Source: Denitrovibrio acetiphilus DSM 12809 (GTDB lineage: Bacteria; Chrysiogenota; Deferribacteres; Deferribacterales; Geovibrionaceae). Taken from it: a stretch of DNA of 64,000 bases. The DNA lies in the NCBI RefSeq assembly GCF_000025725.1, contig NC_013943.1, forward strand, positions 2,170,001 to 2,234,000. Reading direction: 5' to 3'. The position numbers and the translations under genes were made by a program. Each line of letters opens with the position of its first letter. Positions within the stretch are counted from its first letter, which is position 1. The notes beneath the pieces were generated by a model. It saw only the letters and a program-made list of their open reading frames with translations. It was not told the DNA's origin and did no database searches. Positions 25,232 to 42,095 of this stretch are shown here, piece by piece.

Positions 25232-25272
25232 CATATGAAACTATTTTTGCGTCATATGATATTTTACGCAAA
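25232..25272 (+). promoter_or_regulatory. Candidate AraC-type operator for the TonB/ABC operon
   Basis: CATATGA occurs at 25232-25238 and again at 25253-25259, exactly 21 bases apart, each followed by a TTTT-(T/A)-(G/C)CG-like element. That is two direct repeats on the same DNA face, as AraC-family activators use. TTTGCGT (25246-25252) and ACGCAAA (25266-25272) also form an inverted pair. The site lies about 50-90 bases before the TonB receptor ATG; the AraC gene at 30565-31461 is the obvious candidate binder. Confidence 0.5.
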
Positions 25273-25321
25273 GCAATCTTACTATCATAGGCATGCTTAC
25301 TAAAATCACGGAGGCATTATT

Positions 25322-27373
25322 ATGAAAGCATGGTCTTGGGTACTCATTATGTTGTTAACAATCTCCGCCTATGCGGAAGACGATATCACGCTGGACACTG
25401 TAACAGTGACAGCTCAGAAATATGAACAGGCAGAAAACAAAACACCTGTAAGTTCAACTGTTTTCTCTGATATAGATATTGAAGAAAAAAATATTTCAAC
25501 CCTCAAAGACCTATCGATGTATTCTGCAAATGTATCTGTAAAGGCAGATAATGTCGGCAACTCCACTGTGATAAGAGGCATGGCGCCTCTAACAGCGACT
25601 ATGAACGGTCCGGCGGGGATATTTATTGACGGTATCGCCATGCCGTCAGTTTTCATGCAGCAGCCTAATATTTATGACATATCCAGAGTCGAAATACTCA
25701 AAGGTCCGCAGGGGACATTATATGGCAGAAACACAGAATCAGGCGTCATAAACATTATCAGCAGCAAGCCCGGTAACAACCTGTCCATGGGGGCAGAAGC
25801 TGAATATTACTTCTTCGATAACGGCGATACCCCTTACGGTACTAAATTCAAGTTTAACGTCAGTGGTCCTGTTGTCGAAGATAAACTTTTTGCAGGCATA
25901 TCATTTGCAACAGACAAAAATCAGGGCTATTACACCAACGAATTTAACGAAGACGACGAAGCCGGAGAGTTGAACAGAAAGGATATATCTCTGAAACTGC
26001 GGTCAACACCAAACCAAAAAACAGAAATCTACCTTTCTTCATATTATTTTGATGCTGACGACAAAAAAGGAAAATTCAGATACACACAAGGGGCAAATGC
26101 TACCGATGAATACACCATCAACTACAACGACAGATATTCACAGGATTACAATGGCTCTGTAAACAGTCTGAACATCTCATACAGTTTTGCAAACATTCAG
26201 CTTTCCTCCCTCACGGGCATTACGGCATACTCACGGAATTTTTCAAAAGACTTTGACGGATCGGCATCTTCCAGAGGGCTGACCAATTTCAGCATCGATG
26301 ATGAATCCTACAGCGAAGAACTCCGCATAAGCTCCACAGACACTAAAACAAAATGGATATTAGGACTGTACGGTTTCAAAGAAAACTCAGAAACTCTCTT
26401 TGAAAAAACTTTCATGCAGGATAAGCGCAAAGCAAACATAAACACATCCGGAGCGGCAGTTTTCGGACAGATTAGCCCACGAATCACCAAAAAAATATAT
26501 GCTGACATAGGTATGCGTATCGAACAGACGCACCTTGATGTTGACATGAACCGTAACTTCAAAACAGCCGGGCTAAAATACAGCGACGATGAAGACTTCT
26601 TTGAATTCCTGCCGAAACTATCCTTAAACTATGAAACTGAAACAGGGATAATCTATCTTTCCGCCGCAAAAGGCTACCTTGCCGGCGGCGCGAATTACAA
26701 TCTTGCAACTTCTGACGAAACCCTGATCTATGACGAAGAAGAGACCATGAACTATGAACTTGGTTTCAAATCTGTCCTCGGAAAGGGGAGGCTCAAAATA
26801 TCCGCTGCACTTTTCTATATCGACATGAAAGATAAGCAGGTAACTCAAATCCTTCCGGGGGAAATGGGCAGCATGAAGGTGGATAATGCCGCCGATGCTC
26901 ATTCATACGGAGCCGAAGTTGAATTTAAGGCTGTTATAACAAAAGGTCTGGAATTTTTTACGTCTGCCGGATACACAAAAACAGAAGCGGATGAATGGGT
27001 TGACTCTCAGTATAACAATATCACCAGGCAGGATGAGTATTATGATTATTCAGGTAATAACCTGCCGTATGCACCGGAGTATACCTTTACAGCAGGACTG
27101 CAGTACATACATACCAACGGGTTGTTCATAGCAGGAGAAGCTGTGTCCACAGGGGCATACTACCACGATGGCGCAAACAAACTGAAAGAGGACGGCAACA
27201 CCCTCTTTAACCTCCGGACAGGTTATATCGGGAAAAATATTGAGCTGACCGTTTGGTTTGAAAATCTTTTAGACAAGAGATATACAGAGACACAGACTCT
27301 ATGGGGTTCCGTCGCAGTGGTGGAGGATGCCCAGCCAAGAACTATAGGGATAAAGGCGGGGTACAGATTCTGA
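25322..27373 (+). CDS. TonB-dependent outer-membrane receptor (FyuA-like)
   Basis: This 683-aa receptor has a signal peptide (cleavage near AYA-EDD), a TonB-box-like VTVTAQK segment and a plug domain with YIDG-type motif FIDGIAMPSV, RVEILKGPQGTLYGRNTESGVINIIS, then a beta-barrel ending in an aromatic residue (KAGYRF). Size and plug motifs most resemble siderophore receptors such as FyuA (673 aa). It would take up a scarce ligand, probably a metal chelate or other larger molecule. The next gene's ATG overlaps its stop (TGATG). No Fur box was recognised upstream; an AraC-type direct-repeat site was. Confidence 0.93.
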   Translation: MKAWSWVLIMLLTISAYAEDDITLDTVTVTAQKYEQAENKTPVSSTVFSDIDIEEKNISTLKDLSMYSANVSVKADNVGNSTVIRGMAPLTATMNGPAGIFIDGIAMPSVFMQQPNIYDISRVEILKGPQGTLYGRNTESGVINIISSKPGNNLSMGAEAEYYFFDNGDTPYGTKFKFNVSGPVVEDKLFAGISFATDKNQGYYTNEFNEDDEAGELNRKDISLKLRSTPNQKTEIYLSSYYFDADDKKGKFRYTQGANATDEYTINYNDRYSQDYNGSVNSLNISYSFANIQLSSLTGITAYSRNFSKDFDGSASSRGLTNFSIDDESYSEELRISSTDTKTKWILGLYGFKENSETLFEKTFMQDKRKANINTSGAAVFGQISPRITKKIYADIGMRIEQTHLDVDMNRNFKTAGLKYSDDEDFFEFLPKLSLNYETETGIIYLSAAKGYLAGGANYNLATSDETLIYDEEETMNYELGFKSVLGKGRLKISAALFYIDMKDKQVTQILPGEMGSMKVDNAADAHSYGAEVEFKAVITKGLEFFTSAGYTKTEADEWVDSQYNNITRQDEYYDYSGNNLPYAPEYTFTAGLQYIHTNGLFIAGEAVSTGAYYHDGANKLKEDGNTLFNLRTGYIGKNIELTVWFENLLDKRYTETQTLWGSVAVVEDAQPRTIGIKAGYRF

Positions 27374-28350
27374 TGATTAAACCAGACTATAAAACACTGC
27401 TCAACGAAATGAACGGAGCTGTCCGGTGGCACCTGTTCGAAACGTCAATAAAGCTGAAAGTATTTGACTATTTACAGGGCTGGCAAACTGCCGGATTTAT
27501 AGCCGGTAAACTTAACACAGATGAGAAAAAGACTGAATTATACCTCGATGCGTTAGCATCATGTGGATATCTCATAAAATATTGCGGGAGATACAGAAAT
27601 GCTGACATCAGTAATAAATACTTAACGACGCACTCCGGTCTTTATCAGGGAACACTGATCCTCTCTCTATCTTCAAGGAGACTTGCAGGTATTGATAACA
27701 TTTCAAAACTGCTGAAAAATGATGCTGACGACATGTATCTGGGAGACGAAAAAGTCTGGACAGAAGCTCTGAAAACACTTATCCCATTTCAGAAAGCAGT
27801 TGCCAGTGAAGTTGTTTCACTCATCAAAGGACTGAAAGGCTCGGATAATTTCTCATCAATGCTGGACATTGGCGGTGGTCCCGGCTTTATAGGGCAGACA
27901 GTAGCCCAAAGCCTGAAAAATATCCACCTGACACTTTTTGATCTTCCGAAGGTTATAGAGCTGGCAGAACAAAACGCAGAGATCAAAAACATAACCTATC
28001 TCGCCGGCAGCTATTCAAAAGATGACATAGGGAGCAATTACGACATCATATGGGCGAGCAGATCCCTTTACTATGCAGACGACATCTTCCGGCTCGTTTC
28101 CAAGATGGCGGATGCTCTGAAAGACGGAGGCTACCTGATATGCCTCCACGAGGGCGTTTATAACGAAAGAACCCAGCCGCAAGAGATAATACTAAACAGA
28201 ATAGGTGTTGCTCTGAAAGGTTCAGATGTCTCCTTTGAAAGAGGAGAGATAGAATACGCCGTCCAAAAAAGCGGACTTCAGATTATCTCAACTATCTCCA
28301 CTGACGATATAGGCGGAAGCGGAGACATAATAACTGCGAGGAAAATATGA
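27373..28350 (+). CDS. SAM-dependent O-methyltransferase-family protein
   Basis: Starting at the ATG overlapping the receptor stop, the protein is 325 aa. An N-terminal winged-helix dimerisation domain (about 10-90, KVFDYLQGWQTAGFIAGKL) is followed by a Rossmann methyltransferase domain with the SAM motif LDIGGGPGFIG, an acidic LFDLPKVIELA and DALKDGGYLICLHEG. This is the layout of Methyltransf_2 enzymes (hydroxyindole/acetylserotonin O-methyltransferase type). An enzyme translationally coupled to a TonB receptor and an importer is unexpected: it may modify the imported ligand or make part of a chelator. No biosynthetic genes are adjacent. The start upstream of 27373 is not used in this reading. 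Confidence 0.87.
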   Translation: MIKPDYKTLLNEMNGAVRWHLFETSIKLKVFDYLQGWQTAGFIAGKLNTDEKKTELYLDALASCGYLIKYCGRYRNADISNKYLTTHSGLYQGTLILSLSSRRLAGIDNISKLLKNDADDMYLGDEKVWTEALKTLIPFQKAVASEVVSLIKGLKGSDNFSSMLDIGGGPGFIGQTVAQSLKNIHLTLFDLPKVIELAEQNAEIKNITYLAGSYSKDDIGSNYDIIWASRSLYYADDIFRLVSKMADALKDGGYLICLHEGVYNERTQPQEIILNRIGVALKGSDVSFERGEIEYAVQKSGLQIISTISTDDIGGSGDIITARKI

Positions 28351-29252
28351 AAAAAATATTTCTGATAATTTCTATGCTTTGTACACTAACATCCTTTGCA
28401 GGCGAGCACCTGACAATGTCCGGACCTGCAACTCTGGAAAGCTGTCCTATGATGCTAATGGCAGAAGAAAACGCTCTTTCCGTATACGGGGTCACAGCAG
28501 AATTCATACCATGGACATCACCAGACCAATACCGGGCTATGCTCTCATCTGAAAAGAACTTATATGTAATAGTCAGCACACTTGAATATGTCAGACTGAA
28601 CAAACTCATCGAAAATGCACGGCTGCTTTTCTCTGTTGAAGGTAGCCCCATATGGTTTCTAGGCAAAAAAACAGGTGTCACTCTTAAAGAACTGGAGAGC
28701 AGCATTATTGCTCTTCCGTTCAGAGGAGACATGCCGGAAATTCTCCTCATGATGCTTATGGAGAAAAGCGGAAATGATTACAAAAAAACAAAAATTGTCT
28801 CCGCAGGAGGCGGTATAACCTCAGCACAGCTTGTAATGAGAGGAAGAGCGGACTATGTTGCAATTCCTGAACCTATAGCGTCCAGTATAGTAGAGATATC
28901 CGGGAGAAAAGGGCTGAGAAAACTCAGTTATTCCCTTTCGGTTGAAAAAATATGGCGGGAACTTTATCAGTCTTCCCCTCCTCTGCTGGTTAGCAACATT
29001 ATGAGTTTCAAAAGCAGCAGGGAAGCTGATGACGCATTCAGGAAAACATACAGCAGATATTATGGAAAGTGTGTCACAAATGCAGAGGTATCTGCAAATC
29101 TTTTTGTTAAATACTTCCCCGCCGTCAGTAAAAGCGGCATTAAACAACTTATAAGCAGCAATAACATCAAAATACATACGGCAAACGAAATTACAGAACA
29201 ATTAAACGAATTTATCAGATTAATGGACAAACAGATCAAAAATGAATTCTAA
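28347..29252 (+). CDS. NitT/TauT-type ABC substrate-binding protein
   Basis: This 301-aa periplasmic binding protein has a clear signal peptide (MKKIFLIISMLCTLTSFAG). It resembles NMT1/SsuA-type binding proteins: MLMAEENALSVYGVTAEFI, FLGKKTGVTLKELESS and GRADYVAIPEPIASSIVE, the last being the typical second-domain contact region. The start overlaps the methyltransferase stop (ATGA) and the gene overlaps the permease by 11 bases. It delivers the ligand, presumably that of the TonB receptor, to the permease. The ligand cannot be read from the sequence. Confidence 0.85.
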   Translation: MKKIFLIISMLCTLTSFAGEHLTMSGPATLESCPMMLMAEENALSVYGVTAEFIPWTSPDQYRAMLSSEKNLYVIVSTLEYVRLNKLIENARLLFSVEGSPIWFLGKKTGVTLKELESSIIALPFRGDMPEILLMMLMEKSGNDYKKTKIVSAGGGITSAQLVMRGRADYVAIPEPIASSIVEISGRKGLRKLSYSLSVEKIWRELYQSSPPLLVSNIMSFKSSREADDAFRKTYSRYYGKCVTNAEVSANLFVKYFPAVSKSGIKQLISSNNIKIHTANEITEQLNEFIRLMDKQIKNEF

Positions 29253-29979
29253 CAGAAAGATACAAACTGCCGGTATAATATTTGTTCTTCTCCTGTGGCA
29301 GACAGCATCCGTCTTATCAGGAGAATTTGCCGTAGCATCCCCCTTTAGTGCTTTTCCCGTAGCTTTTCGTATGATAACCGACTTCTCGTTTCTGAAGAAT
29401 CATATGCTTATAACAGCTGTACGGGTGATTTCTGCACTTGTATTAGGGTCTGTCACAGGTTTTATTCTGGGGATTTTTGCAGGTAAATATCCTCTGATTA
29501 TGCAGTTCATAGAACCGATGAGAAGAGTTCTGACCACAATCCCCGGAATAGTGGCAGCAGTCCTCGCAATGCTGTGGCTCGGTCTAGGCAGTGCTATGGT
29601 GATTTTTCTGAACAGCATGTTCATTATCCCTGTGGTTTATATCAATGTCGCCGAGAGCATAAATAAGTGCGACAACACCTACATTGAAATGGCTGATGTA
29701 TATCAACTCAGTACATTATCAAGGATAAAAAACATATATATCCCCATTGTCAGCAGTGCCCTGTCAGCAGCTCTTGTTCTTGTCACAGGAAACAGTATGC
29801 GCATGACAGTGCTCGCAGAAGTTCTGGGAACAGGCGAAGGGCTGGGTTTTGTACTGGGCATATCCCGCGCAAGACTTGACATGCCGTCGCTTTACGGCTG
29901 TGTTCTGATATCCTTTGCTTTTGTATGGGCAGGAGAGATCCTTATCAAATTAGTTATCCAGAGGTACTGCCGTGCATAA
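29242..29979 (+). CDS. ABC transporter permease (SsuC/TauC family)
   Basis: This 245-aa inner-membrane permease has about six transmembrane helices and the BPD_transp_1 EAA loop (EMADVYQLSTLSRIKNIYIPIV). GSVTGFILGIFAGKYP and VLGTGEGLGFVLG are typical of the NitT/TauT permease family. It overlaps both flanking genes (11 bases with the binding protein and 8 with the ATPase), so the three form one importer. Confidence 0.92.
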   Translation: MNSNRKIQTAGIIFVLLLWQTASVLSGEFAVASPFSAFPVAFRMITDFSFLKNHMLITAVRVISALVLGSVTGFILGIFAGKYPLIMQFIEPMRRVLTTIPGIVAAVLAMLWLGLGSAMVIFLNSMFIIPVVYINVAESINKCDNTYIEMADVYQLSTLSRIKNIYIPIVSSALSAALVLVTGNSMRMTVLAEVLGTGEGLGFVLGISRARLDMPSLYGCVLISFAFVWAGEILIKLVIQRYCRA

Positions 29980-30568
29980 ATTTATAGCAGAACTGCACAA
30001 CATCAATCTGACTTTTAAAAATCACAATGTTTTTTCGGATTTCAGCCTGAAGATCAGCAATAACTGCATCACAGGCATATCCGGCAGAAGTGGAAAAGGG
30101 AAGACAACACTGCTTAGAATCCTCGCAGGGCTTCAGAAACCAGACAGAGGAGAAGTCATTTTACGGTATAATAAACAAGGATATGTCTTTCAGGATTATA
30201 GACTACTCCCATGGATGAATGTGCTTGAAAACATTACTTTGCCTGTCAGAGGTGAAATATCAGAATCAGATGCCGTAAGCAGGGCGAAGCTGTATCTTGG
30301 GAAATTGGGTCTGAGCGGTTCTGAAAACATGCAGCCAGCAGAGCTCTCCGGCGGAATGGCACAAAGGGTGTCGCTGGCAAGAGCGATGGTCTACAAACCG
30401 GATATAATGTTTCTGGATGAACCTTTCAGTGCTCTCGACTATGAAATGCAGTCACAGGCATCAGAAACAGTTAGGGCGTATGCAGCAGAGCATAAAATTA
30501 GTGTCCTGTATGTCAGTCACCATATTGAAAATCTACGGCTCATGTCAGACACAATAGTAGAGCTTTAA
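29972..30568 (+). CDS. ABC transporter ATP-binding protein (SsuB/TauB family)
   Basis: This 198-aa nucleotide-binding subunit is shorter than SsuB/TauB (about 255 aa), lacking a C-terminal extension. Motifs are Walker A GRSGKGKTT (an unusual G-K-G-K-T-T with Lys in the middle), Q-loop FQDYRLLPW, signature LSGGMAQRVSLARA, Walker B IMFLDEPF and H-loop YVSHHIE. It starts with GTG behind AGAGG. Its stop codon overlaps that of the convergent AraC gene by 4 bases. Confidence 0.92.
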   Translation: MHKFIAELHNINLTFKNHNVFSDFSLKISNNCITGISGRSGKGKTTLLRILAGLQKPDRGEVILRYNKQGYVFQDYRLLPWMNVLENITLPVRGEISESDAVSRAKLYLGKLGLSGSENMQPAELSGGMAQRVSLARAMVYKPDIMFLDEPFSALDYEMQSQASETVRAYAAEHKISVLYVSHHIENLRLMSDTIVEL

Positions 30569-31461
30569 ACGCTCTTTCTGTAAAGTTTCGGCGAAAGACC
30601 TTTCTCTCTACGAAAGCTTTCGCTGAAATGACTGGAAGAACAAAAGCCAGTACAGTAGGCAATTTCTGTGATAGTCATATCTGTGGTTCTGAGGTAATGC
30701 TCTGCCCTATGCACCTTTTCCTGCCTGATAAACTCAAAAACACTCAGCCCCATCTTTATCCTGAAAAGCCTGTTCAGTTTTGTATGGCTCATCCCTGCCA
30801 TATGTGCAAGTTTTGCCAGAGAGTGCTCTTCGCTAAGATTATTCCGGATATAGTTTATCACTTCCAGAACAATAGATTCTTCCCTACCCGCCGACTGGTT
30901 ATAACAACTTTTAAAGTTGTCTGTGAGAAGGTCTGTAGCCCCCGCAAGCTGCATAAGCCTGCCAGTTTCTCCTGCATATCTGCAATCTATTATTTTCCGG
31001 CACAGCATAAAGGAAAAAGGAGAAAGATAAAATAACACCTCCGTCTTTCCAGGCTCTGGCACATTTATAATGCACCCGGTATCAGACATTATATTCTCCA
31101 GTCTGTGACGACAAACTTTGATTATCAGAGCTTCGGTATCAATGTTTTTCGCTATCCGGCGGTTTATCTGTACGTCGTTAGTCTGAAAAGCATACACAGC
31201 ACCTTCAGACATAGGATGCCAGCCGGAGGCTCCGGTAAAAGTGAGATTCAGCTCGCCTTTCAGAACATAAACAAAATTTACTACTTCACCGGATTCTATA
31301 ACTGACGAATGGGAGTCTTCAGATGTTTTCAGACTGCTGTGGGTCATAGTGAAGCCATTGTCGAGCCTGCTCCTCCGGATGTTACCCACAATTTTGTCCT
31401 GTGATCTTAAAACCCACTTTTTACTGCCTGAAACCGGTTTTCCGCAAACGACAGCTGACAT
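30565..31461 (-). CDS. AraC-family transcriptional regulator (PchR/YbtA-like)
   Basis: This 298-aa regulator has an N-terminal ligand-binding cupin-like region (about 1-190) and a C-terminal AraC DNA-binding domain with two helix-turn-helix motifs (LAHMAGMSHTKLNRLFR and ITEIAYCTGFCSSSHFSESFRREKG). The domain order and length match PchR and YbtA, which activate siderophore receptor genes using the imported chelate as co-inducer. It is convergent with the TonB/ABC operon, not divergent, but the direct-repeat site at 25232-25272 is a plausible target. GGGGGAA precedes the ATG. Confidence 0.9.
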   Translation of the reverse strand: MSAVVCGKPVSGSKKWVLRSQDKIVGNIRRSRLDNGFTMTHSSLKTSEDSHSSVIESGEVVNFVYVLKGELNLTFTGASGWHPMSEGAVYAFQTNDVQINRRIAKNIDTEALIIKVCRHRLENIMSDTGCIINVPEPGKTEVLFYLSPFSFMLCRKIIDCRYAGETGRLMQLAGATDLLTDNFKSCYNQSAGREESIVLEVINYIRNNLSEEHSLAKLAHMAGMSHTKLNRLFRIKMGLSVFEFIRQEKVHRAEHYLRTTDMTITEIAYCTGFCSSSHFSESFRREKGLSPKLYRKSV

Positions 31462-31597
31462 ATTTCCCCCAGAGATTTATTGATATTGATTATTAATATC
31501 ATACAACAAAGTTTAAAACAATGCTGATATAGCAGGAGAAGAAGCTATTTATACCTTAGTAATTGTATGATTAAATAGTAGATTTAAACAGGTGAAA

Positions 31598-31629: not shown

Positions 31630-32445
31630 TTATTTCATCAGTTCCTGAGCAGGGAGTATCGCTCCCTTATACTTCTCCGTTATGAATTTCTCAACGGCAG
31701 GCGAAACAAGGATTTCTGCAAGTTTCCTGAGTGCGGGTTTATCAAAATCAACTTTTCTCACAACAAGAATATTGCTGTAGGGTGAGTCTTTATCTTCGAT
31801 AAAAATTGCGTCTTTCAAAGGATTCAGGTTCCCTTCGAGTGCATAGTTGGTGTTAATAACCGCAGCGTCAACATCAGCTAGCACACGTGGAAGCTGAGCA
31901 GCGTCAAGAGCCTTGACCTTCAGCTTCTTAGGGTTGTCTACTATATCCTGAACAGTTGCGGAAACTCCGGCTCCGTCTTTTAGAGTAATGAGCTTTGCTT
32001 TGGCAAGGAGAGCAAGCGCCCTCCCGGCATTAGAAGGGTCGTTAGGGATGGCTACAATAGCTCTTTTTCTGAGATCAGCGATATTGCTTACCTTACGTGA
32101 GTAAACACCGATAGGCTCTATGTGAACCTTTGCAGCCACTGACAGATTCAGGTTGTGATCTCTGCTGAATGATTCCAGATAAGGGATATGCTGAAAAAAG
32201 TTAGCATCCAGTTCACCTCTGTCAAGGGCAAGGTTAGGCTGGACATAGTCTGTGAAGGAGATAATCTTAAGCTCAATCCCTTCTTTCTCAAGCATCGGCT
32301 TAATATACTCCAGTATCTCGGTGTGCGGGACAGGAGTCGCGCCGACCTTAAGAACAGTCTTTTCACCTGTTTCACAATAACCTGAAACACCCACCAGAAC
32401 CAGAAGAACAGTGAGCACTGTTGTTAATACTTTATTATGTTTCAT
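31630..32445 (-). CDS. metQ: Methionine ABC transporter substrate-binding protein (NlpA/MetQ family)
   Basis: MetQ binds methionine in the periplasm for the MetNI importer. The 271-aa protein has a signal peptide ending near SGYC and the family core VLKVGATPVPHTEILEYIKPMLEKEG, YVQPNLALDRGELDANFFQH and the IAIPNDPSNAGRAL type binding segment. A perfect lipobox is not evident, but Cys24 may be lipidated. It lies 32 bases after metI, the last gene of the operon. Confidence 0.92.
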   Translation of the reverse strand: MKHNKVLTTVLTVLLVLVGVSGYCETGEKTVLKVGATPVPHTEILEYIKPMLEKEGIELKIISFTDYVQPNLALDRGELDANFFQHIPYLESFSRDHNLNLSVAAKVHIEPIGVYSRKVSNIADLRKRAIVAIPNDPSNAGRALALLAKAKLITLKDGAGVSATVQDIVDNPKKLKVKALDAAQLPRVLADVDAAVINTNYALEGNLNPLKDAIFIEDKDSPYSNILVVRKVDFDKPALRKLAEILVSPAVEKFITEKYKGAILPAQELMK

Positions 32446-32477
32446 TCATACCTCCTGAGGCTTTCAGCCGTCAGCAT

Positions 32478-33146
32478 TTAATTTTTATGGGACAGTTTAA
32501 CCGCCAGCCTTGTGCCGAACGTCTGCACAAGCTGAACAAAGATTATGAGTATAGCCACTGTAACTATCATTATATCAGTACGAAACCTGTTATATCCATA
32601 CTGAATGGCAAGGTCACCCAGACCGCCGCCGCCGACAGCACCAGCCATTGCGGTGTAGCCTATCACGTTTATAACAGTTATTGCCGCTCCGAGGATAAGC
32701 GATGATTTTGATTCAGGGAGAAGAACCTTAAAAATTATCTGGAAAGTCGAAGCCCCCATAGACTCTGCTGCCTCAATCACACCGTGAGATACTTCTTTAA
32801 GAGAAGACTCCACTATCCTTGCCACAAAAGGAGCAGAAGCAACCACAAGGGGGACGATGGCGGCAGTTGTGCCTATTGATGTTCCAGCAACTATCCTTGT
32901 AAAAGGGATAAGAGCCACCATAAGGACTATGAACGGTGCTGAACGCAGTATATTGATCAGAGTTCCGAGAACCCGCTCAACCCAGGGTGCAGGCAGAATA
33001 TGGTCTTCTGATGAGACCACAAGCAGAACTCCCACCGGAAGCCCTATAATGTATGCCAGAACACAGGAAGCCACTACCATATAAAGCGTTTCCACTGTCG
33101 AAGGCCACAAAAGCCCTATTATATTATTAAAATATTCGTAATTCAT
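32478..33146 (-). CDS. metI: Methionine ABC transporter permease
   Basis: The 222-aa permease has five to six transmembrane helices and the EAA-type loop (AAESMGASTFQIIFKVLLPES), matching MetI (217 aa in E. coli). GYTAMAGAVGGGGLGDLAI is the typical C-terminal signature. It follows metN by 2 bases. Confidence 0.95.
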   Translation of the reverse strand: MNYEYFNNIIGLLWPSTVETLYMVVASCVLAYIIGLPVGVLLVVSSEDHILPAPWVERVLGTLINILRSAPFIVLMVALIPFTRIVAGTSIGTTAAIVPLVVASAPFVARIVESSLKEVSHGVIEAAESMGASTFQIIFKVLLPESKSSLILGAAITVINVIGYTAMAGAVGGGGLGDLAIQYGYNRFRTDIMIVTVAILIIFVQLVQTFGTRLAVKLSHKN

Positions 33147-33148
33147 AA

Positions 33149-34162
33149 CTATATCCTCTGAATAACGAGATTATTGTCAGTAAAATATTGATGAGCATTT
33201 GCAAGCTGCTCTTCCGTACCCCGAAGCTCAAGAAGGAGGTTACCAAAAAGGGTGCCGTGCAGATGGTCAACATTACCATATATTATATTCACAACCACAT
33301 CGCTTGACTTGATCAGTCCGTTTATCATAGGCTCAGATGCCGAATTCCCGTAAAATGATACTTTGATAAGCTCAGAATCTTTATGGGGCTTAAGGGCGCT
33401 GAGGATATCATCGGGAAGTTCTGTTCTGAAAATATCTGCCACAAAGTCCTTCGTTACCTGTGTTTTCGGAGAGATAAAAACTTCCTCAACAGTACCGTGT
33501 TCTATACACTTAGACTCTGCAAGCACGGCGACATGAGTGCATATGTCTTTGATAACATTCATTTCATGGGTAATGATGACAATAGTAAGCCCCAGATTCT
33601 GGTTGATATCTTTTAAGATACTCAGAATCGACGAGGTGGTTTTAGGGTCGAGAGCAGACGTTGCCTCGTCACAAAGCAGAACTTCAGGCTTTGTTGCCAG
33701 TGCTCTTGCTATACCGACTCTCTGTTTCTGCCCTCCGGAAAGCTCCGACGGGTATGAGTCTGCTTTATCTTCCAGCCCGACAAGGGGGAGGAGTTCGCTC
33801 ACCCTCTTTCTGATTGCGGTCTTGTCCCAGCCGGCAATCTCCAGCGGAAAACCTATATTTCCAGACACAGTCCTTGACTGAAGCAGATTAAAATGCTGAA
33901 AGATCATAGAGATCTTCTGTCTCTTCTGCCTGAGCTCTGTCTTTGAAAGAGTAGAGATATCCTGTTCTGAAATTAATACTTTCCCTTCGGTAGGCTTCTC
34001 CAGCATATTAAGACATCGAACCAGAGTGCTTTTCCCCGCACCACTGGAACCGATAATCCCGAAAATTGACCTTTCAGGTATATCAAGTGAGATATCCTGA
34101 AGAGCCTGTACTCTTCCGTTCAAAGTGTCATAAGACTTTGACAGGTTTCTGATCTGAATCAT
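33149..34162 (-). CDS. metN: Methionine ABC transporter ATP-binding protein
   Basis: The 337-aa subunit has an ATPase domain with Walker A GSSGAGKST, Q-loop FQHFNLL, signature LSGGQKQRVGIARAL, Walker B VLLCDEATSALD, and a C-terminal NIL regulatory domain (about 262-337) that binds methionine and causes trans-inhibition. GGGGG precedes the ATG. No SAM-I riboswitch was recognised in the 158 bases upstream; a TTGACA hexamer (34240-34235) is a possible -35 element. Confidence 0.95.
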   Translation of the reverse strand: MIQIRNLSKSYDTLNGRVQALQDISLDIPERSIFGIIGSSGAGKSTLVRCLNMLEKPTEGKVLISEQDISTLSKTELRQKRQKISMIFQHFNLLQSRTVSGNIGFPLEIAGWDKTAIRKRVSELLPLVGLEDKADSYPSELSGGQKQRVGIARALATKPEVLLCDEATSALDPKTTSSILSILKDINQNLGLTIVIITHEMNVIKDICTHVAVLAESKCIEHGTVEEVFISPKTQVTKDFVADIFRTELPDDILSALKPHKDSELIKVSFYGNSASEPMINGLIKSSDVVVNIIYGNVDHLHGTLFGNLLLELRGTEEQLANAHQYFTDNNLVIQRI

Positions 34163-34446
34163 TATTCCCCCGAGTCAATATTCTAAACCAACTTATCTAT
34201 TTAATCTATCTTTTTTGTAGTTATTTTAAAATTTTGTCAACAGTAATGTAAACTTGATTGCCTCAGAATGCCAGTCATTATACGTACTGCACCTCAGCAG
34301 ATAAGAAATACTTCTGACACATGATAATAAACATCAAGCATAAACTGAAAACACCTGGTCCCCATTATATTAAGCCATCTGGCACTTTCAGCAAGGCATC
34401 CCGTGCACTAATATTATCTTATTTATTAATTTTACCGGAGGACTGC

Positions 34447-34974
34447 ATGTTTCTCAAAAGAGGATTATTCACAAAAAAGCTATCTCCATGGTTAACAGGG
34501 TCACTAACGGGGATAACGGCAGCAGCGTGTTGCGTTTTCGCAGGAAAGACCCTTGGAGCATCCGGAGGTTTTGTCACTATCGACAGCTACATAGGAAATT
34601 ATTTCAACACAGGATGGGCAAAACTTCCATATTTTACTGCTGCAAAACCACCTATTTTATCTTTTCAGATAATCCAATATATAGGAATGCTCGCAGGAGC
34701 GATTATCTCTGCTCTTATGTCAAAAGATTTCCATATCAGATCCCTGCCTGCTAAAGAATGGAAACCAAATTTCGGCAAAAGTGTTGTTAAACGTTGGATA
34801 ATGATTTTTATCGGCGGAATACTTGTGGAGCTTGGAGCATGTATTGCCGGAGGCTGCACAAGCGGACTGGGCATATCCGGCATTATACAGCTTTCTCCGG
34901 CTGGTTTTATCTTTTTCATATCCGCATTCACAAGCGGCATAATTACTGCCGGAATACTCTTCAGGAGGACTTGA
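34447..34974 (+). CDS. YeeE/YedE-family sulfur transporter, first half
   Basis: The 175-aa membrane protein starts at ATG 34447, which follows CCGGAGGA; an upstream in-frame ATG has no binding site. It has about four to five transmembrane helices. The motif GACIAGGCTSGLGISG carries the Cys pair found in YeeE/YedE (TsuA) thiosulfate transporters and in the two-gene PmpA/PmpB type. The next gene encodes the partner half one base downstream. Transport of thiosulfate or another reduced sulfur species is inferred from the family. Confidence 0.85.
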   Translation: MFLKRGLFTKKLSPWLTGSLTGITAAACCVFAGKTLGASGGFVTIDSYIGNYFNTGWAKLPYFTAAKPPILSFQIIQYIGMLAGAIISALMSKDFHIRSLPAKEWKPNFGKSVVKRWIMIFIGGILVELGACIAGGCTSGLGISGIIQLSPAGFIFFISAFTSGIITAGILFRRT

Positions 34975-34975
34975 C

Positions 34976-35497
34976 ATGCAAAACTTTGCTCTCCCCCTTA
35001 TCATCGGTTTTATATTTGGTTTTTTACTTCAGAAAACAGGACTCGGGCATTATGATAAAATCGTCAATCAATTCAGATTTAGAGATAATACGATGCTTAA
35101 GTTTGTGTTGGGAGCCTTAACGTCAGGCATGATGACCATAGCAATATTCAAATCTGCCGGACTGCTGTCACCGGTTTCTATGCCGGACACATACATACTT
35201 GGTAATGCATCAGGAGGGCTCATACTAGGTATCGGGATGGTTATAGCCGGAGCATGCCCAGGTACACTGATAGCAGGGATCGGACAGGGCAACATAGACT
35301 ATCTCATTCCAGGATTATTGGGGTTTCTCGCAGGAGGACTGCTCTTCGGATATCTGTTTAGTTTTTTTGCTGTCAACATAGCTACCGTAGCATTCTACAA
35401 AGGAATATCCATTACAGACATCACCAACCTAAACAACTACATATTTGCTTTTGCTATGCTTGCTGTGAGCGTTGCAGCTGCAAAATTATTACGTTAA
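34976..35497 (+). CDS. YeeE/YedE-family sulfur transporter, second half
   Basis: The 173-aa protein has about five transmembrane helices and the family motif AGACPGTLIAGIGQG, with a Cys that in TsuA lines the pathway, plus LGALTSGMM. It is the natural partner of the preceding gene, with which it would form a full-length transporter split over two polypeptides. AGGAGGACTTGAC precedes its ATG. The rhodanese-like gene follows 18 bases later. Confidence 0.87.
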   Translation: MQNFALPLIIGFIFGFLLQKTGLGHYDKIVNQFRFRDNTMLKFVLGALTSGMMTIAIFKSAGLLSPVSMPDTYILGNASGGLILGIGMVIAGACPGTLIAGIGQGNIDYLIPGLLGFLAGGLLFGYLFSFFAVNIATVAFYKGISITDITNLNNYIFAFAMLAVSVAAAKLLR

Positions 35498-41071: not shown

Positions 41072-41977
41072 CTACGACTTTGATATATTTTGGAACTTAA
41101 TATAAATATCCACAGGCTTTTCCGACGACTCTTCATCGCTTGCAGTTTCATTATAGAAGTGAAGTCTTAAATCAAAAACAGTTTTCTCATCACCGACAAT
41201 CCTGCCAGCATAAATTGTCTTATTGCTATGCAGCGCAAGCTCTCCATCCACATTCATCATTTTCTCTTTCTCAGGGTTCTTATCAGATTTTACCCTCATA
41301 CCAGAATCAGCCTTACCATACTCATGACATACAACATCATAACTGTCTTCTCTGAGTTCAAGCATGCGACAGGTGCCTGAAACTGTCATAGCAAACCCGG
41401 ACTCCAATTTAATCGGTATTGAATATTCCCACACAGCACCAGCCCCGACATCCTCTTGCGGTTTTCGCGGATATCTTTTGAGAACATCAAGGATGTCCTT
41501 TGACGAAAATGTATTAGCAATATCTTTCTTAGTTTTCACAATATCAGAGCAAAAGGAATAACCATCGGCATTAACAGTATACGAGAAACCTGCATTATCA
41601 GGGTCAAAGGTCTTTTTTATCTTTTCGCGAATCTGCTCGACATCAGCACCTTTACTGCTCAAAGCATTTACCTCTTTGACCTCCCCTACCACATGGTAAC
41701 TGCCGTCCTCCATCACCTTGTCCACCACAAGGTCTTCCACAAACTGAAGAGTAACAGAATAGAAAGCCTTAACATTAGTCTCATCATTTTCAGCAATCAG
41801 CGTTGAAACAGTTTCCTCTAAAACAGATGTCTCTTTATGCCCTTCTTCAAAGTCATTACTGAATAAAGGCTTTGGATCTGAACCTTTATACACAACCTTG
41901 ACCACATACCCATCATCAGCATGTAGGCTGACAGCACAAAAAAACACAAACAAAGAGACGATGATATTAATTCTCAT
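41072..41977 (-). CDS. Periplasmic protein of unknown function (DUF6263-like)
   Basis: ATG at 41977 has AGGG 7 bases upstream and gives 301 aa with a signal peptide (MRINIIVSLFVFFCAVSLHA, cleaved before DDG). The mature part appears beta-rich and repetitive: alternating hydrophobic strands such as YSVTLQFVEDLVVDKVMEDGSYHV and a WEYSIPIKL stretch. It contains two Cys residues (SFCSD and GTCRM, plus VVCHEY). The plan resembles uncharacterised secreted DUF6263-type proteins; this match is from memory and moderate. It is a single-gene unit with no informative neighbour. Confidence 0.65.
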   Translation of the reverse strand: MRINIIVSLFVFFCAVSLHADDGYVVKVVYKGSDPKPLFSNDFEEGHKETSVLEETVSTLIAENDETNVKAFYSVTLQFVEDLVVDKVMEDGSYHVVGEVKEVNALSSKGADVEQIREKIKKTFDPDNAGFSYTVNADGYSFCSDIVKTKKDIANTFSSKDILDVLKRYPRKPQEDVGAGAVWEYSIPIKLESGFAMTVSGTCRMLELREDSYDVVCHEYGKADSGMRVKSDKNPEKEKMMNVDGELALHSNKTIYAGRIVGDEKTVFDLRLHFYNETASDEESSEKPVDIYIKFQNISKS

Positions 41978-42095
41978 TATCACACCCTTCCGCTCATACT
42001 CTTATACTATCAACCCTTTGTCAACATTATTTAAACGATGCAACATAGAAAAGCAGATAGGTTACAGCATTGTCCGGATAAATGATTGCTGTAAT

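Follow-up and report, generated by a model that had tools for sequence, protein, structure and literature searches.

Denitrovibrio acetiphilus DSM 12809 carries, within a 64,000-nucleotide stretch of its genome (the window, C1:2170001-2234000 of a single contig of 3,222,077 bases), an operon that is, on balance, best read as an iron-repressed importer of a ferric chelate (probably a siderophore from other microbes), with a methyltransferase acting on the ligand after entry. Six genes fill window positions 25322-31461: five on the plus strand, in the order TonB-dependent receptor, methyltransferase, periplasmic binding protein, permease and ATPase, and then a convergent minus-strand gene for an AraC-family regulator. 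The original prediction described the genes as overlapping to form one unit, and all of the junction overlaps are indeed present, comprising 1 nucleotide between receptor and methyltransferase (TGATG, 27371-27375), 4 between methyltransferase and binding protein, 11 between binding protein and permease, and 8 between permease and ATPase, while the stop ends of the ATPase and AraC genes overlap by 4 nucleotides; the order is also conserved in other genomes. The region as first delimited began at 25232, which is 90 bp before the ATG of the receptor gene, and takes in the receptor promoter. GC content is 43.1% at the locus and 42.5% around it, a composition like that of the surroundings. The features of the locus are:

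25322-27373, plus strand: TonB-dependent receptor, FyuA-like, 683 amino acids, with plug and barrel domains
27373-28350, plus strand: S-adenosylmethionine (SAM)-dependent methyltransferase of the COMT fold, 325 amino acids, with Methyltransf_2 and dimerisation domains
28347-29252, plus strand: periplasmic binding protein, 301 amino acids, of the NitT/TauT (NMT1-like) fold by predicted structure
29242-29979, plus strand: ATP-binding cassette (ABC) permease, SsuC/NtrB/SaoP-like by library models
29972-30568, plus strand: ABC ATPase, GTG start, 198 amino acids, with Walker A GRSGKGKTT, LSGGMAQR and FLDEPFSALD
30565-31461, minus strand: AraC-family regulator, convergent with the operon
25236-25272: candidate AraC operator in the receptor promoter, consisting of TGAAACTATTTTTGCGTCATATGATATTTT (25236-25265) and the overlapping inverted repeat TTTGCGTCATAT/ATTTTACGCAAA (25246-25272)
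31482-31500: Fur-box-like palindrome GATATTAATAATCAATATC, 16/19 to the consensus, lying 21 bp before the start codon of the AraC gene

In the proposed mechanism, Fur, whose part is deduced from the operator, would repress the AraC gene until iron shortage lifts the repression, and the AraC protein, probably with the ligand as its signal, would activate the receptor promoter. The FyuA-like receptor would then carry the chelate across the outer membrane, and the NitT/TauT-type binding protein, permease and ATPase would carry it across the inner membrane. The cytoplasmic methyltransferase, co-translated with the receptor and importer by virtue of the gene overlaps, would methylate the imported ligand. 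The components of this scheme differ in strength. A ferric chelate is rather probable as the ligand class, and action of the methyltransferase on that ligand in the cytoplasm stands somewhat short of an even chance. The purpose of methylation can be proposed tentatively: it may lower the affinity of the ligand, releasing the iron and preventing its rebinding, or it may detoxify or tag the spent chelator.

Evidence for iron control comes from the regulator promoter. Scored against a single gammaproteobacterial consensus, the site upstream of the AraC gene is one of the two best in the 64 kb, and the whole genome contains 17 distinct Fur-box-like sites at three or fewer mismatches, against 0 for a reversed control pattern. 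Other genomic sites precede genes identified by eye as feoAB, a FecCD-type permease, an ExbB-like gene and a flavodoxin, and further ones, likewise named by eye, precede AraC genes near other receptors and the gene for a FeoB-associated Cys-rich protein. In orthologous loci, a Fur box lies upstream of AraC in Seleniivibrio (19/19), Azospirillum (17/19) and a Desulfovibrio metagenome-assembled genome (MAG; 15/19). Library models were matched by the DNA-binding domain of the regulator only, and the assignment reaches the AraC family, short of the PchR/YbtA-like label of the original prediction; its gene is linked to the operon in most loci, downstream and convergent in Deferribacterota and upstream in the others. 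Judged from sequence, the operon thus possesses a linked AraC-family activator under putative Fur control. Positions 25236-25265 of the receptor promoter are identical at 22/30 sites to the Seleniivibrio receptor promoter, a value reached by 0/100 dinucleotide shuffles, and 25236-25272 is a candidate AraC operator; the motif was not found in locus L011. The second Fur-box-like site of the window (41963-41981, 16/19) overlaps the start of a minus-strand gene (41072-41983) for a predicted secreted protein of 303 amino acids.

The receptor belongs among the relatives of siderophore receptors. Its plug and barrel domain scores far exceed the cut-offs, it is 54% identical to each of two Deferribacterota orthologues, and a profile of three Deferribacterota orthologues places FyuA (4epa, 6.5e-42) nearest among solved structures, with YncD/PqqU second (about 5e-21) and some 20 orders of magnitude behind. 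For the Desulfoluna receptor, too, FyuA ranks ahead of YncD/PqqU, and the label "FyuA-like" given to the receptor at the outset is supported. Against TIGR01783 the window receptor scores 145 bits, under the cut-off of 223.5; it has no match to the PqqU model, to which the Azospirillum receptor scores 70.9 bits (cut-off 1200). Iron-uptake genes also adjoin the operon elsewhere, namely genes for 2,3-dihydroxybenzoate (2,3-DHB) synthesis in Rhodovulum, an iron-chelate ABC transporter in Rhodobacter capsulatus and FecBCD in Seleniivibrio. The proposal of a chelate as ligand is therefore supported, and specifically for iron, by the Fur boxes that precede the regulator gene in four lineages, the FyuA-like receptor, the adjoining siderophore genes and the substitution of major facilitator superfamily (MFS) transporters for the ABC importer in some genomes (see below); nickel, cobalt, copper or zinc, which had been listed beside iron, find no support, the operator being of the Fur type.

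Siderophore synthesis genes were not found in the D. acetiphilus genome, which has neither a non-ribosomal peptide synthetase (NRPS) condensation domain nor an IucA/IucC (NRPS-independent siderophore) domain, and because of this the chelate is probably foreign, made by other microbes. The same observation bears on the possibility that the methyltransferase helps to make a methylated metallophore for secretion and re-uptake by the organism itself, which would fit its co-translation with the receptor and the 2,3-DHB synthesis genes adjoining the Rhodovulum operon. However, besides the missing domains, the operon holds no amino-acid- or phenol-modifying genes among the examined genomes, and the methyltransferase accompanies several kinds of importer, in a Bacillota MAG together with ABC and redox genes only. 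The undescribed methylated metallophore of the original prediction is consequently improbable as a self-made compound, with no biosynthetic genes in the operon.

The gene arrangement is not due to chance. Surveys comprised a genome-collection scan with the methyltransferase alignment, profile searches in Desulfobacterota and a plasmid search; a genome-collection scan with the binding protein alone found no relative, whereas the methyltransferase alignment succeeded. The order receptor, methyltransferase, binding protein, permease, ATPase occurs in 16 genomes, drawn from Deferribacterota, Desulfobacterota and Alphaproteobacteria (the window, L011, L012, L013, L015, L016, L020, L023, L025, L042, L060, L061, L062, L063, L065 and L066), and it is therefore not unique to the window genome; uniqueness had been named as an outcome that would refute the original prediction. 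L065 is a plasmid of Rhodovulum sulfidophilum and L066 a plasmid of R. capsulatus SB1003, which holds the full six-gene set (RCAP_RS17780 to RCAP_RS17755). The closest relatives found are in Deferribacterota, where 3/51 genomes, representing three genera of one family (including L005/L011 and L006/L012), have the order. The operon is rare in the Desulfobacterota sample, with matches in 6/395 genomes, two of them already found. In one Desulfobacterota locus (L063, 8373-10677), insertion-element genes split the binding-protein gene.

Variant loci bear on the role of the methyltransferase. The Bacillota MAG (L029) has binding protein, permease, ATPase and methyltransferase with no receptor, which suggests that the methyltransferase belongs with inner-membrane import and not with the receptor. 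The order in Azospirillum (L064, L067) and Dethiosulfatarculus (L044) is AraC, MFS, receptor and methyltransferase, an MFS transporter taking the place of the ABC importer. The Dethiosulfatarculus transporter scores 174.9 bits to AmpG and 152.7 bits to RhtX/FptX (cut-off 356), both below cut-off; assignment of the Azospirillum transporter to RhtX/FptX was rejected, as it is Tet/BcbE-like. Because the methyltransferase stays when the receptor is lost (Bacillota) and when the importer is exchanged (MFS), the case for its acting on the imported ligand is strengthened. The earlier proposal that the ligand is methylated on or after entry is still our best guess for the role of the enzyme, a guess drawn from its constant company with importers. 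Distant relatives of the enzyme in ANME-1 (anaerobic methanotrophic archaea), Methanotrichaceae and Vallitaleaceae adjoin, in several loci, FecB/C/D-like genes and heterodimeric CydDC/MsbA-like ABC genes; others have no import gene nearby. Clusters in ANME-1/Methanophagales (L024 1924-19598, L018, L026, L041) contain several related methyltransferases, CydDC/MsbA-like ABC genes and FecB-like binding proteins, and L024 also encodes a radical SAM protein resembling ChuW/HutW (231 bits, cut-off 400); these clusters may represent an archaeal system for chelates or tetrapyrroles.

The methyltransferase has the two domains of its fold, scoring 50.4 bits to Methyltransf_2 (cut-off 22.3) and 29.2 bits to the dimerisation domain (cut-off 25.6), and no signal peptide was apparent by inspection. 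Its nearest relatives are 2r3s, 3mcz, ASMT and PigF, those of the Desulfoluna enzyme are DsyB and RedM, and BchU is one among many COMT-fold matches. The catalytic His of class II (COMT-like) O-methyltransferases is missing: the His of the LHxx motif is present in ASMT, PigF, 2r3s and 3mcz, but Tyr233 of the window enzyme aligns with the catalytic His of ASMT, and the position is Tyr in nearly all receptor- or ABC-linked relatives and mostly Asn in the archaeal clade. DsyB also lacks the His. Among COMT-fold enzymes, DsyB is an S-methyltransferase, BchU a C-methyltransferase and DtpM the holomycin methyltransferase. As the LHxx His is replaced by Tyr (mostly Asn in the archaeal clade) and the S-methylating DsyB lacks it too, "O-methyltransferase", judged from sequence comparison, is the name of the fold only; O-methylation is unproven. 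The operon enzyme shares fold and domain order with ASMT, PigF, DsyB, RedM, DtpM and BchU. It differs from O-methyltransferases of the ASMT/PigF type in the residue at the catalytic position, and from all six in that they serve biosynthesis, whereas it accompanies importers.

The importer was predicted to be of the NitT/TauT type, and this identity is supported by the predicted structure of the binding protein and by permease models below their cut-offs. The binding protein has no significant match to any binding-protein model in Pfam or NCBIfam; its AlphaFold model (pLDDT 90.8) is predicted to be an NMT1-like two-lobed protein, best matched by NMT1/TauA/SsuA/ThiY/PqqT-type structures, with PqqT and MqnD among the matches. 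The permease is a BPD_transp_1 protein; of the NCBIfam models it comes closest to SaoP, SsuC and NtrB, with every score far under cut-off. The Sao (selenocysteine-assisted organometal) system was considered because SaoP was the top permease model, and rejected because the scores were far under cut-off (SaoP-type permease 65/295 bits, ATPase 132/360 bits, binding protein without match); the mlp/Sao paper contains no TonB or NitT content (PMC10418091). A conserved Cys of the binding protein was likewise rejected as a soft-metal site, being limited to Deferribacterota.

The TauA and SsuA matches of the binding protein, together with a permease nearest SsuC, NtrB and SaoP, would also suit an importer of a sulfonate, sulfate ester or phosphonate with its own receptor for sulfur supply, the methyltransferase belonging to unrelated metabolism. 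In Pseudomonas, the uptake of aromatic sulfate esters relies on a TonB receptor together with a NitT-type importer. Nevertheless, this explanation is the least probable of the alternatives weighed here, given the regulator-linked Fur box of four lineages, the FyuA-like receptor, a methyltransferase that is a fixed part of the operon, the lack of a sulfatase or monooxygenase gene nearby, and the MFS transporters that substitute for the ABC importer.

Other NitT-type systems came to light in these searches. A second one in the same genome (L007 5720-11621; C1:2302000-2316000), whose binding protein is the closest genomic paralogue (25%), comes with a regulator of the Crp type and with an ABC ATPase that carries fused DUF2249, hemerythrin and PAS domains, and looks like a nitrogen-oxide- or oxygen-responsive importer. 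A search with the binding protein in Pseudomonadota returned a related but distinct NitT group, which was set aside; its binding protein, permease and ATPase sets (L132-L140) have no methyltransferase, adjoin NnrS, NorB-like or TonB-receptor genes, and are perhaps linked to denitrification.

In some Desulfobacterota and Bacillota hosts, redox genes join the operon. A quartet of a DUF6064 membrane protein, a PRK05802 flavin/Fe-S reductase, a GidA/TrmFO-like flavoprotein and a PRK06851 double-P-loop ATPase stands before or after it in L016, L025, L042, L061, L063 and L029 (e.g. L025 3678-7873, L016 13392-18225), with a UbiE-type methyltransferase added in L016 and L029, which suggests redox processing of the ligand in the hosts that have the quartet. 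As part of the operon core, the quartet was rejected for the window genome: judged by the GidA-like protein, it is absent from the 51 Deferribacterota genomes, where nothing beyond short matches of the Rossmann or TrmFO type turned up, and in Bacillota the PRK05802/GidA-like pair is widespread in gene neighbourhoods unrelated to this one (GidA-like protein in 114/398 genomes). These genes, along with YncD/PqqU as the second-best solved receptor and the binding protein's structural matches to PqqT and MqnD, could point to a redox cofactor or shuttle resembling pyrroloquinoline quinone (PQQ) or a quinone, imported and then methylated and reduced inside the cell. Fur control of the operon, the distance of the PqqU match behind FyuA and the distribution of the redox genes just described leave this a very improbable account.

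In Seleniivibrio (L008 13768-16988), a NifH/NifD/NifK-like set lies directly after FecBCD-type importer genes and ahead of the operon; its NifH comes closest to CfbC (335 bits, cut-off 402) and its third subunit to BchB. The FecCD/ATPase-NifHDK unit recurs in five Bacillota genomes (L150-L154), there without the methyltransferase uptake operon, and because of this recurrence the nitrogenase-like reductase appears to be tied to iron-chelate or tetrapyrrole import. A tetrapyrrole or similar ligand (heme, corrin or degraded porphyrin) modified by the methyltransferase would be analogous to anaerobic heme breakdown by ChuW/HutW, a radical-SAM methyltransferase. Such a ligand may be suggested by the Seleniivibrio genes, by the ChuW/HutW-like protein in the ANME-1 locus with methyltransferase homologues, and by the match of the methyltransferase fold to BchU. 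It is rather unlikely, since FyuA is the nearest relative of the receptor, whose likeness to heme receptors is weak, the FecBCD-NifHDK unit is found alone in Bacillota, BchU is just one of many COMT-fold matches, and the operon has no heme-degradation gene.

Several observations weigh against import of a ferric chelate with methylation after entry. The usual cargo of NitT/TauT importers is small anions, thiamin precursors or PQQ rather than siderophores. With the single consensus used, a Fur box was not detected in L011, L013, L020, L023, R. capsulatus or Rhodovulum. In addition, L014, L036 and L038 have the methyltransferase beside a receptor without any ABC genes, and the homologues in L017, L019, L027, L028 and L039 have no recognised import gene nearby.

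Compared with known systems, the operon resembles FyuA-YbtA and FptA-PchR in control and receptor, and is set apart by its importer type and added methyltransferase. With FyuA/YbtA/YbtPQ (yersiniabactin) and FptA/PchR/FptX (pyochelin) it shares a FyuA-nearest receptor, a linked AraC regulator with a Fur-box-like operator at its gene, and a dedicated inner-membrane importer. Unlike in those systems, the importer is a three-part NitT/TauT ABC system, its BPD_transp_1 permease and NMT1-like binding protein differing from importers of the YbtPQ, FptX or FecCD type, the methyltransferase is built into the operon, and the genome lacks siderophore synthesis. NitT/TauT/SsuABC importers have the same binding-protein fold and the same permease and ATPase families, but the operon importer is tied to a TonB receptor and a methyltransferase, appears iron-regulated, and has a binding protein too divergent for the Pfam and NCBIfam binding-protein models. 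The PqqU (YncD)/PqqT pair likewise combines a receptor with an NMT1-like binding protein, each a lesser match to its operon counterpart, and the receptor falls far under the PqqU cut-off, as seen for Azospirillum; we know of no methyltransferase or Fur-AraC control in PqqU/PqqT. The pairing of a methyltransferase with an outer-membrane receptor in an iron-regulated importer is apparently undescribed, as we could not find it; a literature search covering few subscription journals returned neither the gene combination nor the R. capsulatus locus tags, nor BchU active-site residues. Beyond the AraC gene, the window encodes, at 31630-35497, an ABC importer for methionine of the MetQ/NlpA type (minus strand) and a split pair of YeeE/YedE-type sulfur transporter genes, neither of which appears to be part of the operon.

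Collectively, the fixation of a methyltransferase in an iron-regulated importer of distant lineages suggests ligand methylation as part of iron acquisition, and the operon points to yet-unnamed chelates used by anaerobes. Importers annotated for nitrate, taurine or sulfonate that adjoin TonB receptors may accordingly be iron systems, and the six-gene plasmid set of R. capsulatus SB1003, a laboratory strain that is easy to work with, makes the ligand as well as the methyltransferase's role directly testable. Siderophore uptake usually ends with the chelate being reduced or hydrolysed. A more speculative and doubtful version of the mechanism is that the methyltransferase, once the intact ferric chelate has been taken up, caps one of the ligand's donor atoms (O or S), freeing iron irreversibly in the cytoplasm and leaving the spent chelator unable to rebind it. 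If true, donor-atom capping would constitute a third route of iron release beside reduction and hydrolysis, common to Deferribacterota, Desulfobacterota, Alphaproteobacteria, some Bacillota and perhaps ANME archaea.

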